From positions 1 through 19,484 of the forward strand of contig PWOI01000204.1 in NCBI GenBank assembly GCA_003557485.1: a DNA stretch of 19,484 nucleotides, given 5' to 3'. The position numbers and the translations under genes were made by a program. The notes below the pieces were generated by a model. It was not told the origin of the DNA, searched no databases, and worked only from the letters and a program-made list of their open reading frames with translations. The stretch's first letter is position 1. Every line of letters begins with the position of its first letter. The DNA comes from Elusimicrobiota bacterium. GTDB lineage: Bacteria > CG03 > SLGR01 > PWQF01. Positions 5,079-11,248 of this stretch are shown here, piece after piece.

Positions 5079-6647
5079 TTGATTCACAGCAAAAAAACTA
5101 CTAATAATTATCGTAAAATATGCACTCGCATTATTAAGTTTTTTGTTTTTTTAGCAATCCTTGCTGTATTTAATTCCTCAGTTCCCTTATTTGCAACAAC
5201 GCATCCTGTCTTTAACGAAACAGTTAATCTTTCAACAACTCAAATAAAAGCTACTTTTTATGATTCACGGGAAAATTGTGCATTTATAAAAACGCACTGT
5301 AAAAAGAATATTATTATTAATGGCATAGAAGATAGAAGATCTGAATGGTATAGGGATATTCGGAATAACCTCAGGGAACCAATGAGAGTTTTCATTTTTT
5401 TTGAATCCAGCAGAATTGCTGATATAGATGCTGCTGTATTGACCTCTCCTTCCTATATAACTGCAATGCGTAGAATGGTAGATGACTTCAATGTGAGAAA
5501 AGTATATGTGCCGGATATTCCAGTTAAAGGATATTACAGAGCTTTTTTGGATTATCTTACTCTGAGGAATATTGGATTTGAATTTTTCAAAACAGGAGAC
5601 ATAATAAAATTAGGTTCAACTGAACTTGAGATATTAAAATGCTCCAACCGGGATAACGGGAGACCTATCGAAAGCATAGTAAGGTTTTCCTATAAAGAAA
5701 CTAAAATATTATTTGCCGGCAGAGCTAGTTTAACCTCCCAGAATTATCTTAGAGAAAAAGTGGGTGAAAATCTCATTAGTACTATTTTAAAACTTGTTAA
5801 TTATGGATATTCGCCTTTAGACTCAGAGTTTATTAAAAAAGTTAATCCCGGGTATACAATAATATTTGCCAATCCCGATAAAACCCGCCGGGAAAATATT
5901 AATTCAATAGTTAATAAGTGTGCTTACAATGGCAGTGAAGTTTTTCGCAGTGATTCATACAACATAATTACTATGGAAGGCGGAACACTTCAACAAACTT
6001 ATAATTCTACTATTAGAATAATATCAGACGGGTATAATTACAAAATAGTATCTCCAAAGAATTTGGATAAAATAAAAGAAGAGATCTTCCATCTTCAACC
6101 CCCGCAGATTGAATACTCCTACAACAGAATGTGCTGCAAACTCCTTGATACTAAAATAAAAGAGGAAACTCCTTATGTTGAAGTACTGCTTGACGGCGAT
6201 TATTTTCCAGCGGTAGCAAGAGAAATAGACCAGGCCGTCCACAGTATTTATATGGTAATGTTTTTTGTGAATATGGGCCAAAGAGATACAAATCCCGTAA
6301 ACATACTTATAGATAAACTTATACAGGCAAGGCAAAGGGGTGTAAAAGTTAAGGTCCTACTGGAAAAACCGCGTGAAAGAGATGAAGACGATTTCGATTT
6401 CCTTGATTACAATAACACCAAGGTTTACAGGTGGCTTGCAAATGCCGGCATTGATGCAAGAATGAGCCCGCCGGAAGAAAAAACACATCATAAATATATA
6501 GTCTTTGACAACGAATTTACAGTAATAGGTAACCATAACTGGTCGCAAACGGCCCTGGAAGGAACGCAGTATGAGGCGGCAGTGCTTATACAATCTGAAG
6601 CAGTAGCAAGAAGGTTTATAAACAACTACTATGACAGCCTTAATTAA
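5079..6647 (+). CDS. Exported fusion: degenerate ComEC-type MBL fold + HKD (PLD-like) domain
   Basis: The 522 residues begin with a signal peptide (hydrophobic core about 19-39, after a basic N-terminus). Residues 56-300 follow the strand pattern of the ComEC-type metallo-beta-lactamase domain, but each metal-binding motif is replaced: SPSYITA (123-129) where HxHADH is expected, GR (214-215) where GD is expected, and NYGYS (241-245) where GHHGS is expected. A linker leads to a PLD-like domain (366-522) with one HKD motif: H470, K472, D477, then GNHN (484-487). Single-HKD proteins of this family are usually nucleases or phosphodiesterases that act as dimers. The start is TTG 5079: a TAA lies directly before it (5076-5078) and the first ATG in frame is codon 102, after the signal peptide. 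No good ribosome site is visible. It overlaps the next HKD gene by 17 bases. Confidence 0.82.
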   Translation: MIHSKKTTNNYRKICTRIIKFFVFLAILAVFNSSVPLFATTHPVFNETVNLSTTQIKATFYDSRENCAFIKTHCKKNIIINGIEDRRSEWYRDIRNNLREPMRVFIFFESSRIADIDAAVLTSPSYITAMRRMVDDFNVRKVYVPDIPVKGYYRAFLDYLTLRNIGFEFFKTGDIIKLGSTELEILKCSNRDNGRPIESIVRFSYKETKILFAGRASLTSQNYLREKVGENLISTILKLVNYGYSPLDSEFIKKVNPGYTIIFANPDKTRRENINSIVNKCAYNGSEVFRSDSYNIITMEGGTLQQTYNSTIRIISDGYNYKIVSPKNLDKIKEEIFHLQPPQIEYSYNRMCCKLLDTKIKEETPYVEVLLDGDYFPAVAREIDQAVHSIYMVMFFVNMGQRDTNPVNILIDKLIQARQRGVKVKVLLEKPRERDEDDFDFLDYNNTKVYRWLANAGIDARMSPPEEKTHHKYIVFDNEFTVIGNHNWSQTALEGTQYEAAVLIQSEAVARRFINNYYDSLN

Positions 6648-7197
6648 AAAGAAATTCAAAATTAGCAGGATAATTCTTTTTAGTTTATTACTTGTAACAT
6701 TAACGGGCACTTATTCTTCAGGACATAGGGGCTATAAAGCCGATTTTGTTCAGCCTCTTTTCGAACGTGAATATGAAGAAACAGTAATGGAGTTATTAAG
6801 ACAAGCCCGTAAATCTATTTATGTTTCTATGTATTTTATTCAAATGTCGGAAATAGAGGTCCTTCCGGTTAATCAACTAGTCAATAGGCTTATTGAAGCG
6901 CACGAGAGAGGAGTCGAAGTATATGTTGTTCTTGAGGGGGGCAATCGTACCGAATTTATTAATCGTCTTAACAAAGAGGTTAAAAACAGGCTGGAAGATG
7001 TAGGTATTCGCGTAAGGATGAATAGTTCACGGACAATTAATCATGTTAAGTTAATTGTTGTTGATGATTTTATATCAGTTATAGGGTCTCATAACTGGAC
7101 ATTGACAGCATTCCGCAGAAACCAGGAATCATCGGTTATGATAAAATCGGCTGATGTTGCCAGAGACTTTAAGAGATATTTATTAAGGTTAAGATAA
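6631..7197 (+). CDS. Exported single-HKD phospholipase D-like/nuclease protein
   Basis: This 188-residue protein has a signal peptide (basic start, hydrophobic core about 13-27) followed by one PLD-like domain. The motif is H138, K140, D145 and GSHN (152-155), the intact HxK(x)4D...GSxN pattern. It is clearly paralogous to the C-terminal domain of the preceding gene: both share a PVN...LI-A-RGV-V-V-LE block before the HKD motif. Single-HKD members usually dimerise to build one active site; known activities are DNA/RNA phosphodiester or phospholipid hydrolysis. The ATG lies 17 bases inside the upstream gene without a proper ribosome site, so translation is probably coupled. That points to co-production of the two HKD proteins outside the cytoplasmic membrane. 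The substrate is unknown. Confidence 0.85.
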   Translation: MTALIKKKFKISRIILFSLLLVTLTGTYSSGHRGYKADFVQPLFEREYEETVMELLRQARKSIYVSMYFIQMSEIEVLPVNQLVNRLIEAHERGVEVYVVLEGGNRTEFINRLNKEVKNRLEDVGIRVRMNSSRTINHVKLIVVDDFISVIGSHNWTLTAFRRNQESSVMIKSADVARDFKRYLLRLR

Positions 7198-7559: not shown

Positions 7560-8090
7560 ATTAAAAAACAAAAAAGTTACAAAACATTAATAATTTATCT
7601 ATCAGTAATATGTACATCAGTTTTCTGTAGTATGTATATTTTTGCTGGCGATATTATTCCAATAGAACCGCCAATAGTTATTTCTGTAAATATTTCTCTT
7701 TATGTATCACCGAAAGAGGGATTTGCACCCCTTACGGTATTTGCATCTTATAGTATAGATAGAGAAGAGGCTTACGCTGAGAAAAAGGCACATAGGTATT
7801 CTGGTTCCGCTGGCTTCACAAAAGAAACCCTTACGAGGAATATTTTCGAAACAGGTGAAAGACAATATGGGTTTTTAAATCCCGGAACTTATCCGATAAG
7901 AATAGAAAAAACTTACGGGGAAATAACAGCTGTAGCTGAAAGAATAATTTCAGTTTTTGATGAGGAAAAACATACTGCTGATGACGAAGAAGAAAATGAG
8001 GGAAAGGGTAATCATGAGAGGATCGATATACCACCCGATGTGGGTTATAATCCCCCTCTAATAGTGCCTGTGCTTCCAGTGCTTTTTTAG
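7560..8090 (+). CDS. Exported PKD-like (Ig-fold) protein, probable ATT start
   Basis: The first ATG in this frame is at 7632 and gives 152 residues beginning MYIFAGD, in the middle of a hydrophobic run. The frame is open back to a TGA at 7545-7547, and those codons encode a textbook signal peptide: KKQKSYK, then about 20 hydrophobic residues ending IFA before GD. No ATG, GTG or TTG lies in the extension. An ATT at 7560, 9 bases after GAGAG (7546-7550), is the best initiator and gives 176 residues. Residues 42-133 resemble a PKD domain: SPKEGFAPLTVFAS at its start and PGTYPIRI followed by AERIISV at its end, although the usual WDFGDG centre is missing. An acidic stretch and a proline-rich C-terminus follow. 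Such domains are typical of surface or periplasmic binding proteins. If only ATG is used, the gene is 7632-8090 and the product would lack a signal peptide. Confidence 0.65.
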   Translation: MKKQKSYKTLIIYLSVICTSVFCSMYIFAGDIIPIEPPIVISVNISLYVSPKEGFAPLTVFASYSIDREEAYAEKKAHRYSGSAGFTKETLTRNIFETGERQYGFLNPGTYPIRIEKTYGEITAVAERIISVFDEEKHTADDEEENEGKGNHERIDIPPDVGYNPPLIVPVLPVLF

Positions 8091-8220: not shown

Positions 8221-9810
8221 ATGTGTTTCAGAAAAAAACCACTAATATGTTTCGGTGTACTAGCAATATTTATATTGTTGTTTTGTGGGTATATAAGAGG
8301 TAATTCACATTTAGATAGTATTAAAGAAGCGATATCAGTAGGAAATTATAATGAAGTTTCATTATGTGCAAAACTGAACTTAAAGGAAGATCCGGAATCT
8401 GCATTATCTAAGGCGATACTTACATATATTGATTACGAAGATTTAATGATTATTGAGGCTATGGAAAACGAAGATGTAGAGGCAGTAATCCTATTGCTTG
8501 AAACGGGGATTGAGTTAGATAAAAGAAGACCTGAAGACGGGAACACCGTTTTAATTCAAGCCGCACGAGCAGGATATATAAATATCGTGAAAAAGTTAGT
8601 TAAGGCAGGTGCAGATATAAATTTAGCAAGAAATGATGGAGGAACAGCTTTGTTGGGGGCTGCATATGAAGGACACAGAGATATAGTGAAATTTTTGTTG
8701 GAAGCAGGAGCGGATGTGAAAGCGCAAATGATAGATGGTACAACACCTTTGATATATGCGGCGTACAAAGGATTTACAGATATTGTGAAAGATTTGATTA
8801 TGGCAAAAGCTGATATCAATGCACAAACATATCACGGAAATACTGCATTAATGTATGCAATTTTTGCAGGACACATAGAAACAGCAAAAGTTTTAATTCA
8901 ATTAGAAATCGATGTAAATAAGAAAATGAATGATGGAACAACAGCTCTGCATATTGCTTCAGATAAGGGTTTTGAAAAAATAGTAGAAAAATTGATAGGA
9001 AAAGGAGCTAATATAAATGCAAGGACTAATGGGGGTGTTACCGCGTTAATGTATGCAGCCAGCAAGGGTTTTAAAAATATCGTGGAATATCTTATAAATG
9101 CGAAAGCTGATATTAACGCACAAAGTAATCAAGGTGGTACAGCATTAATTTCTGCGATAACGAGCGGACATTTTGAAATAACAAGAATTTTGTTAAAAGC
9201 AGGAGCCGATATAAATCATCAAATGGAGGATGGTGCAACAGCTTTAATAGTAGCGGCTGATAATGGTCATAAGAATGTAGTGGAAATTTTAATACGGGCC
9301 GGAGCTGACGTAAATATAAAAAGTGATATGGGAAATACTGCATTGATTCATGCGGCACGTCGTGGGCATGTTGATATAATGAATATATTATTAGAGGCTG
9401 GAGCTGACATAGATGAAACAAACAGGTATGGTTCTAATGCATTAGTTTTAGCCACGTTAGGTAACAACTTGGAGGCAGTTGAATATTTGTTGGATTCTGG
9501 AATTGATGTTAAACAGCATATGAAAGATGGCAATACGGCATTAATAATTGCTGTTGAGAATGGATACAATGAGATTGCAAAGGTTTTGGTGCGTGCCGGA
9601 GTGGATGTAAATGCGGAAAGGATTATTAGGACTAGGGCTTTAATGTATGCAGTTGAAAGAGGATGTAAGGAAATGGTAGTAATTCTTATAGAAGCCGGGG
9701 CTGATGTTAATGTGAAAGATGGCAAAGGAAGAACAGTTTTAATGATGGCTAAAGAAAACAACCGTAAGGAAATAGTAGAGATTTTGAAGAGGGCGGGAGC
9801 TAAACGTTGA
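8221..9810 (+). CDS. Membrane-anchored or exported ankyrin-repeat protein
   Basis: A 529-residue protein with a basic N-terminus and a hydrophobic segment at about 8-24 (signal peptide or anchor). The segment ends LLFC, which is not a proper lipobox. From about residue 73 to the end there are 14 consecutive ankyrin repeats of 33 residues with the usual G-TAL--AA--GH--IV--LL-AGAD-N pattern; the first acts as an N-cap and the last is shortened. There is no catalytic domain. The array would form a long solenoid for protein binding, probably outside the cytoplasm. The repeats show a higher-order period of three. The ATG at 8221 has no ribosome site directly upstream, but a strong SD-like site lies 52 bases away. 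It shares the A+T-rich composition of its neighbours. The binding partner is unknown. Confidence 0.88.
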   Translation: MCFRKKPLICFGVLAIFILLFCGYIRGNSHLDSIKEAISVGNYNEVSLCAKLNLKEDPESALSKAILTYIDYEDLMIIEAMENEDVEAVILLLETGIELDKRRPEDGNTVLIQAARAGYINIVKKLVKAGADINLARNDGGTALLGAAYEGHRDIVKFLLEAGADVKAQMIDGTTPLIYAAYKGFTDIVKDLIMAKADINAQTYHGNTALMYAIFAGHIETAKVLIQLEIDVNKKMNDGTTALHIASDKGFEKIVEKLIGKGANINARTNGGVTALMYAASKGFKNIVEYLINAKADINAQSNQGGTALISAITSGHFEITRILLKAGADINHQMEDGATALIVAADNGHKNVVEILIRAGADVNIKSDMGNTALIHAARRGHVDIMNILLEAGADIDETNRYGSNALVLATLGNNLEAVEYLLDSGIDVKQHMKDGNTALIIAVENGYNEIAKVLVRAGVDVNAERIIRTRALMYAVERGCKEMVVILIEAGADVNVKDGKGRTVLMMAKENNRKEIVEILKRAGAKR

Positions 9811-10148
9811 GTAGATTTTATAAACCCCTACATTGGAAAAAGACATTTGGGAAGTGTTAAGATATTGAAAATAGATAATTCATAGGGGGAGTCTCCATTA
9901 AATCACATTTAATAAGTTTTGGCCAAAAACCAAGCATACGCAATAATGGGAAGAGGAATGCGATATTATGCCTGATTCTTATTCCTCCCGGTGATTGGGA
10001 ATATGACCCTGACACAATGGAGATAAAGTCTGAATCCCACCCTGACTTGTAGTATTCTTTCCGATAGAATATGCTAATAGTTGGTGGGGCAATGACTTTT
10101 ACAGAGCATTCGAGATAGACTCATTGGTCAAGCAACGCATAGAGAAAA
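9811..10148 (+). other. Inter-gene region filled by decayed coding sequence
   Basis: There is no intact gene between the ankyrin and TPR genes. The first 65 bases show nothing recognisable. From about 9879 onwards an open frame with coding character continues, broken by a TAG and a frameshift (listed separately as a pseudogene). TTTTGGCCAAAA (9917-9928) is a perfect 12-base palindrome but lies inside that decayed frame. Confidence 0.4.
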
Positions 10149-10168
10149 TTGAGTATAAAAAACAATAA
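9897..10168 (+). pseudogene. Decayed gene remnant, copy 1 (family unknown)
   Basis: The frame from 9897, after a GGGGGAG run at 9885-9891, reads through LILIPPGDWEYDPDT and SHPDL, then meets TAG at 10050-10052. In the related copy downstream this codon is TGG, so a Trp-to-stop change is likely. The protein-like sequence resumes in another frame as EYANSWWGNDFYRAFEID and ends at TAA 10166-10168, overlapping the TPR gene start by 20 bases. Two disruptions and a matching second copy argue for a pseudogene rather than noise. The original left boundary and the function are not known. Confidence 0.5.
10038..10122 (+). repeat. Diverged direct repeat, copy 1
   Basis: These 85 bases align with 11135-11220 at about 65 of 86 positions by hand count. 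The best-conserved stretches are CACCCTGA, AGTTGGTGGGG and ATGACTTTTACAGA. The two copies flank the TPR gene and are decayed coding sequence in both places. Confidence 0.7.
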
Positions 10169-11090
10169 AACTATATTAAATCTATTGATAGGTTTGTTTC
10201 TAATTGCGAATTTAGTAATTGCCAGGGAAACAAATGATAAGCAGCTGAGGGAAACAATAGAAGATTGGGAAAGAAAATCTCTTGAGGCCTATTTTGAAGA
10301 AGATTTTAAAATTATAAAAGAAGCAAGAGATGAATATCTTGCAATAATTAATGAGTTTCCTGATAGTTCTTTTGCGTATTCAGCTCTGGCTGACGCGTAC
10401 TACTACCTGAGTGAGTATGAGAAATCTATTGAAAATGCTGAAAAAGCTCTGAAATTAAACCCGAATCATCGCCCGGCATATCCTACAATAGGGAGTTGCT
10501 ATATAGTAATAGGGTACAGATATGAAGAACAAAATAAAATGGAGGAGGCCAGAAGATATTATTTGAAGGCGAAAGAGAAGTTTGAAAAGGCCCTTGAATT
10601 TGAAACTACTGAGTTGCAGGAATCTATGGATAAGATGCATATTGCTAATTTAAGAAATGTTATTGAAAGAATTGATAGAGATATGGTGTATGAAACTATA
10701 GAAAATCTTAGAAAATTAGCACGGAAAGCAGCAGATGAGGAGGATTATATTTCTGCCGCCAGGTATTTAGAGAAGGTTTTGGAAATAGATCCCAGACCCG
10801 AATATGTAAAAAATACATTAAATTACTCCTATAGCAGAATTGGTCGATATTATAATGTTGGGAAAGATTACCATAATGCAGTCAAATATTTCAAAAAAAT
10901 ATTAGAAGAATTTCCTGATTATGAGCCGGAGACGACGCATAAGGAATTAGCAAATATTTATAGAGAATTGAAAGAATATGAAAGAGCAAAAGAACATTTT
11001 ATGGAGGTTTTAAATTTAAATCCGGAGAATAGGGGGGCAAAATGGGGGTTGGAAGAAGTAGGGCGGGAATTGCAAAGAAACGATAATTGA
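10149..11090 (+). CDS. Exported TPR-repeat protein, TTG start
   Basis: A 313-residue protein with a signal peptide (hydrophobic core about 8-24, cleavage probably near ARE at 25-27). The rest is helical TPR repeats at about 73-105, 109-152, 188-214, 221-255 and 262-295, with typical A--LA--Y---Y--A------AL-LNP patterns. TPR arrays are protein-interaction scaffolds, so a periplasmic or outer-surface assembly role is likely, but no partner can be named. TTG at 10149 is the only usual initiator that keeps the signal peptide: TAG lies in frame at 10140-10142 and the first in-frame ATG is deep inside. The ribosome site is weak (GAGA at 10142-10145), so the overlap with the upstream pseudogene may once have provided coupling. 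It is flanked by the two copies of a diverged repeat. Confidence 0.85.
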   Translation: MSIKNNKTILNLLIGLFLIANLVIARETNDKQLRETIEDWERKSLEAYFEEDFKIIKEARDEYLAIINEFPDSSFAYSALADAYYYLSEYEKSIENAEKALKLNPNHRPAYPTIGSCYIVIGYRYEEQNKMEEARRYYLKAKEKFEKALEFETTELQESMDKMHIANLRNVIERIDRDMVYETIENLRKLARKAADEEDYISAARYLEKVLEIDPRPEYVKNTLNYSYSRIGRYYNVGKDYHNAVKYFKKILEEFPDYEPETTHKELANIYRELKEYERAKEHFMEVLNLNPENRGAKWGLEEVGRELQRNDN

Positions 11091-11120: not shown

Positions 11121-11248
11121 ATAGTGAAAAATCTCACCCTGATTTGTGGTGTGGTCTCAAGTAGGATATGCGAAGAGTTGGTGGGGGTGATGACTTTTAC
11201 AGAACATTTTGGGTTGACTCTTTTTTTATTTGCTCCTCTGTTACATAG
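11121..11248 (+). pseudogene. Decayed gene remnant, copy 2
   Basis: One frame reads KSHPDLWCGLK, a TAG at 11162-11164, then GDDFYRTFWVDSFF and a TAG at 11246-11248. These peptides match copy 1 (SHPDL; NDFYRAFEIDSL). An extra base in the G run at about 11182-11188 relative to copy 1 indicates an indel. It is a fragment of the same unidentified gene, left between the TPR gene and ilvD. Confidence 0.45.
11135..11220 (+). repeat. Diverged direct repeat, copy 2
   Basis: The partner of 10038-10122, in the same orientation and 1,097 bases away. The matches concentrate in two blocks, CACCCTGA and the stretch from AGTTGG to ACAGA. It contains no terminal inverted repeats, so it does not look like an insertion-sequence end. 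Confidence 0.7.

Follow-up and report, generated by a model that had tools for sequence, protein, structure and literature searches.

A predicted exported protein from an Elusimicrobiota bacterium that joins a ComEC-type metallo-beta-lactamase fold lacking its classical metal ligands to a single HKD domain

The window analysed here, a stretch of 19,484 nucleotides from an Elusimicrobiota bacterium, carries on its forward strand a reading frame of 522 amino acids with a TTG start codon (5079–6647). Together with an orthologue described below, this frame defines a gene, termed pMBL-HKD, that encodes an export signal, a ComEC-type pseudo-metallo-beta-lactamase (pseudo-MBL) domain (residues 55–325; 5241–6053, forward strand) and a single HKD (PLDc_2) domain (residues 365–522; 6171–6644, forward strand). 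The signal peptide-like segment (5079–5201, forward strand) begins with basic residues, is hydrophobic up to approximately residue 33 and contains a cleavage-like site between LFA and T, and residues 8–33 form a helix in the structural model. On these grounds the protein is predicted to be exported, in agreement with a sequence-only reading of the locus. The motifs on which that reading was built were found where it had placed them, namely KNIIINGI (76–83), SPSYITA (123–129), GDIIKLG (173–179), KILFAGR (209–215), NYGYS (241–245), FIKKVNPGY (251–259) and the HKD residues H470, K472 and D477. The only Pfam domain above cut-off was PLDc_2 (PF13091, residues 381–515, E 1.2e-20), and Rfam matched nothing within the window.

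A second exported single-HKD gene encoding 188 amino acids (6631–7197, forward strand; PF13091 E 6.8e-25) starts 17 bp inside the end of pMBL-HKD, and its product matched the structures of Nuc (1byr, E 9.8e-8) and NucT (6ehi, E 1.4e-4). Downstream on the same strand lie a possible exported small protein with a SPKEGFAPLTVF segment (7632–8090), which matched no family and resembles downstream PKD-like proteins in genomes G005 and G006, an exported-looking ankyrin-repeat protein (8221–9810, Ank_2 E 3.1e-113) and an exported-looking TPR protein (10149–11090, TPR_2 E 3.6e-22). These genes, from 5079 to approximately 11100, form an island with a G+C content of 0.34–0.38 between flanks of 0.47; the related clusters in G005 and on contig C97 are low in G+C as well. 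HKD and TPR genes are common to the islands in G005, G006 and G000 contig C97, and PKD-like proteins occur in those of G005 and G006. The second HKD gene also adjoins pMBL-HKD in G005, where its frame contains an in-frame TAG.

When the window was compared by blastn with the corresponding locus (L018) of a same-genus genome, G001, the segment 5259–11253 was missing and the flanks aligned directly (window positions up to 5258 and from 11254). In G001 only 61 N-terminal residues of pMBL-HKD are left, and beyond them lies a dispersed repeat in inverted orientation, which probably represents the end of an insertion sequence. The repeat also lies between island genes in the window (10033–10125 and 11130–11223) and near the starts of G000 contigs C26, C109, C111 and C124 (approximately positions 76–123). 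HKD copies with in-frame stops were seen in related islands (L006 5334–5768; G005 contig C47, 7401–7607; G006 contig C283, 4083–4388), suggesting gene turnover or assembly errors. The overlapping HKD gene, the island and the remnant in G001 go beyond the sequence-only reading, as does the loss of HxHxDH from ComEC domains of the phylum described below.

Neither Pfam nor NCBIfam gave an accepted MBL match in the protein, and the MBL domain would therefore be missed by standard annotation. A phmmer search against PDB sequences nevertheless aligned residues 55–302 with the ComEC beta-lactamase-like domain 9ic4 (E 3.2e-4), a resemblance that, judged at the sequence level, is far above chance. An AlphaFold2 model built from seven input sequences had a mean pLDDT of 62, with values mostly between 70 and 93 across residues 110–290. 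Foldseek placed 9ic4 at the top of the matches to this model (E 3.2e-17), and VIA-align superposed it with a Z of 26.9 and an rmsd of 2.8 over 248 residues, ahead of the second-best fold, the teichoic acid phosphorylcholine esterase Pce (1wra and 2bib, Z 20.5 and 20.3). A second model, made with one additional HKD sequence, had 9ic4 and Nuc 1byr as its two top matches. Because the corresponding part of the orthologue matched ComEC structures by phmmer at E 2e-22, we regard the ComEC homology as settled. The protein thus has the alpha-beta-beta-alpha fold of the ComEC beta-lactamase-like and MBL superfamily; it is not a ComEC protein, the transmembrane Competence domain PF03772 being absent from the chain. 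The sequence-only reading had proposed an MBL-like fold over residues 56–300. Structure prediction and fold search bore out the fold and moved its end to approximately residue 325, at an ISDGYNYK strand that is the counterpart of the [IV]TDGKxY end in the secreted MBLs of the phylum.

Ligand positions were assigned by alignment with 17 intact secreted homologues from the phylum and four from Bacillota, used as reference. The window protein has other residues at every classical position (HxHxDH, the bridging Asp and HHGS), as the sequence-only reading had stated. The former motif II reads LTSPSYITA in place of LTHPHADH (5439–5465, forward strand), the former bridging-Asp motif KILFAGR in place of LFTGD (5703–5723, forward strand) and the former HHGS motif NYGYS, with NYGLV in the orthologue (5799–5813, forward strand). 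At HxHxDH the residues are S, a gap, S and Y; the bridging Asp has become R, the His pair N-Y and the last His E, leaving the early D of an FYD sequence as the sole survivor among the aligned positions. In the orthologue the same positions hold H, a gap, E and Q, then N, N-Y and Q, leaving the leading His of motif II as the one ligand kept. The window protein thus lacks the HxHxDH motif, bridging Asp and later His ligands that mark an active MBL. Migration of the ligands to other parts of the domain was considered: since residues 55–325 contain one histidine in 271 residues, the window protein cannot have a classical two-metal site based on histidines, an exclusion that does not extend to a site made of Asp, Glu or Cys.

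The HKD domain retains its catalytic motif, THHKYIVFD (6483–6509, forward strand), and H470, K472 and D477, together with the following G-x-H-N-W, are conserved across five island HKD domains. The motif is therefore intact, as had been read from the sequence, and with HxKx4D inside a PLDc_2 domain the protein belongs to the PLD/HKD superfamily. The nearest PDB sequences for this part were those of MitoPLD/Zucchini (9lkx, 4ggj) and Nuc (1byr), and Foldseek matched it to Nuc 1byr (E 1.3e-7) and Zucchini 4ggk; model confidence over this part was moderate only. The NCBIfam NucT model matched with an E of 2.6e-8 and a score of 34.1 bits, far below its equivalog cut-off of 211, indicating likeness to NucT rather than membership of that family. 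Assignment to the DISARM component DrmC was rejected (41.3 bits against a cut-off of 133), PADLOC matches being confined to the HKD part. In related genomes, paired PLDc_2 domains were seen inside very long open frames on G010 contig C25 (13,409 codons), G005 contig C75 (4,136) and G011 contig C42 (4,437).

A search for the same two-domain order in other genomes, which the sequence-only reading had suggested as a check, identified one orthologue, at locus L006 of Elusimicrobia bacterium HGW-Elusimicrobia-2 (G005), with identical domain order and 39% identity over residues 10–520 (E 7.9e-101 in a whole-genome search). As this relative belongs to a different family within the phylum, the pairing of the two domains is genuine, and pMBL-HKD is a new combination, in a narrow group of organisms, of two domain families that are known. 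No ATG, GTG or TTG lies near the start of the orthologous frame and an ATG occurs just upstream in a different frame, a sign of either an atypical start or a minor error in the assembly. The pattern search of GTDB contigs recovered L006 as the single relative spanning both domains, and an intact gene was present in two of 16 phylum genomes, across which the PF13091 profile recognised no additional HKD gene as this fusion. The fusion was not found among 299 Bacillota genomes, where matches were confined to the MBL region (the search was run twice on largely overlapping genomes), nor in IMG/VR, and no plasmid record covered 80% of the query. Wide sampling covered the protein's own phylum and Bacillota, and the narrow distribution is to be read within these two groups.

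In a tree of MBL domains the two fused pseudo-MBLs grouped together with support of 99/99, on which basis the fusion and the loss of ligands are dated before the split of the two lineages. This is the simplest history, parallel loss being the possible alternative. The branch of the window domain is very long (2.45 changes per site); when it was left out, the pseudo-MBL of the orthologue joined the secreted, metal-intact ComEC-type MBLs of the phylum (82/87), with weak support for a position inside one sub-group of them (74/57 only). An origin from type B ComEC did not appear in the best tree and was not rejected (p-AU 0.22). The nearest intact relatives are secreted ComEC-type MBLs from within the phylum.

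Alignment of the two orthologues gave 60.4% identity for the HKD part (154 aligned residues), against 28.8% for the pseudo-MBL (271 residues) and 33% for the linker. We see the HKD domain as the working unit mainly because of this difference, which points to constraint lying there. The same difference would also be expected if the pseudo-MBL were a structural remnant, the fusion having placed an HKD enzyme on an exported carrier whose dead domain has no ligand and is drifting. The length of the window branch fits such drift, as does the frequent decay of island genes (the 61-residue remnant in G001, the TAG in the second HKD gene of G005 and broken HKD genes in G005 and G006). Against it, the beta-lactamase fold is still well predicted over residues 110–290, both lineages have kept an open frame across 270 residues, and the domains have changed neither in length nor in order. 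We consider a remnant rather unlikely, though it deserves to be taken seriously.

The reading to which we give about even chances is that pMBL-HKD is an exported, HKD-catalysed nucleic-acid phosphodiesterase in which the dead ComEC-type domain binds the substrate or positions the HKD dimer. A single-HKD phosphodiesterase of the Nuc, NucT and Zucchini kind would act outside the cytoplasm, presumably on nucleic acid, and its N-terminal half, once a ComEC-type MBL nuclease, would have been retained after loss of the metal site as a non-catalytic module, contacting the nucleic-acid substrate, setting the geometry of the HKD dimer, or both. In single-HKD nucleases, which are dimeric, the active site lies where the two chains meet (PMC5714352), and because HKD active sites form in this way the protein would be expected either to dimerise with itself or to pair with the second HKD protein encoded at 6631–7197. 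NucT is a periplasmic dimeric endonuclease that prefers single-stranded nucleic acid (PMC5714352), and live nucleases with a dead MBL partner are known from CPSF100/CPSF73 and INTS9/INTS11 (PMC4819959). Binding of DNA, cell wall or lipid by the pseudo-MBL, as proposed in the sequence-only reading, is a putative function. With isoelectric points of 9.3 in the window protein and 8.3 in the orthologue, the pseudo-MBL is basic, less strongly so in the latter; the fused HKD half is acidic (5.2 and 5.9), unlike the second HKD protein, which is basic (9.0). The acidity of the fused HKD half and the lower isoelectric point of the orthologous pseudo-MBL count against the reading given here, as do the moderate model confidence over the HKD part and the fast divergence of the pseudo-MBL, which also fits relaxed constraint.

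HKD domains act on phospholipids too. The protein could then be an exported phospholipase or cell-wall phosphodiesterase, with the HKD domain cutting lipid or teichoic-acid-like phosphodiesters that the pseudo-MBL binds; the position of Pce as second closest fold and the PDB naming of MitoPLD as a cardiolipin hydrolase agree with this. The ComEC fold is, however, clearly closer (Z 26.9) and the nearest single-HKD relatives with solved structures are mostly nucleases, and we judge such an activity improbable.

The likeness to ComEC also raises a part in DNA uptake, with the fused HKD domain degrading the non-transforming strand or otherwise processing incoming DNA in place of a dead ComEC domain. 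ComEC (PF03772) is present in 15 of the 16 phylum genomes, that of the window's genome lying on a separate contig (C88). Where motif II of its C-terminal domain is readable it takes forms such as VHPPFSG, IHPSYGK, LSSSIYH, SNPLPEN and SNLKPEN and never HxHxDH, so that these domains are judged to be catalytically dead. Such domains occur in ComEC types of approximately 700 and 980 amino acids (L029, L031, L030, L028, L037 and L041–L043). In Streptococcus pneumoniae a probably dead ComEC domain accompanies EndA, and the ComEC of Helicobacter pylori has no such domain (PMC12455585); for NucT, the HKD nuclease that H. pylori exports, a mild transformation phenotype is described (PMC5714352). The intact pMBL-HKD gene is nevertheless found in two of 16 genomes against 15 with ComEC, in a low-GC, variable island and outside the comEC operon, where several genomes already encode an intact secreted MBL. 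On account of the gene's distribution and its position outside the operon, a competence role seems quite improbable to us. A similarly slim chance is given to the broader proposal that, in this phylum, a live HKD nuclease acquired a dead ComEC-type domain in cis as its DNA-guiding part and took the place of the MBL in strand processing during uptake or in handling of extracellular DNA.

G001, G012, G015 and, in part, the window's genome carry gene runs in which a secreted MBL accompanies an SLBB/ComEA-like protein and ComEC. The MBL genes concerned are L076 (3709–4689, reverse strand), L082 (3725–4711, reverse strand) and L084 (858–1823, forward strand), all metal-intact, and L075 (3975–4553, reverse strand), a copy that ends at a contig edge. 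The run also holds a small membrane protein, and its ComEC has a dead domain of its own; the operon-encoded secreted MBL looks like a nuclease provided in trans. On G005 contig C80 a free-standing, exported-looking MBL-like gene with the dead motifs LTSPAENFCGG and IYAGN (L079, 6141–7193, reverse strand) lies between two ComEC genes, beside a 584-amino-acid frame. How the non-transforming strand is handled where ComEC has no active domain has been stated to be open (PMC8579336). The ComEC motifs of this phylum and its operon-encoded secreted MBLs are reason to ask whether dead ComEC-type domains are linked to separate nucleases, and if the dead domain of pMBL-HKD guides DNA, the protein would offer a soluble, testable model for the role of catalytically dead ComEC domains.

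In comparison with known systems, pMBL-HKD appears as a natural case in which a nuclease fold has become the passenger or binding module of an unrelated nuclease that follows it. It shares with the C-terminal domain of Moorella ComEC (9ic4) the fold over residues 53–327 (Z 26.9) and detectable sequence homology, but lacks metal ligands, transmembrane channel and OB domain and is followed by an HKD domain. With NucT and Nuc it has in common an export signal, one HKD motif per chain and similarity to the NucT-type profile, whereas those proteins consist of the HKD domain alone and pMBL-HKD has a pseudo-MBL of 270 residues in front. The secreted ComEC-type MBLs of the phylum (for example L089 and L085), the closest intact relatives of the orthologous pseudo-MBL at 37% identity, also have a signal sequence and the TDG end motif, yet their metal motifs are intact and no HKD domain follows. 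CPSF100/CPSF73 and INTS9/INTS11 likewise keep an MBL fold without HxHxDH beside a live nuclease; in these eukaryotic pairs the live partner has an MBL fold as well and acts on RNA, whereas in pMBL-HKD the putative live partner is an HKD domain, joined in cis and predicted to be exported.
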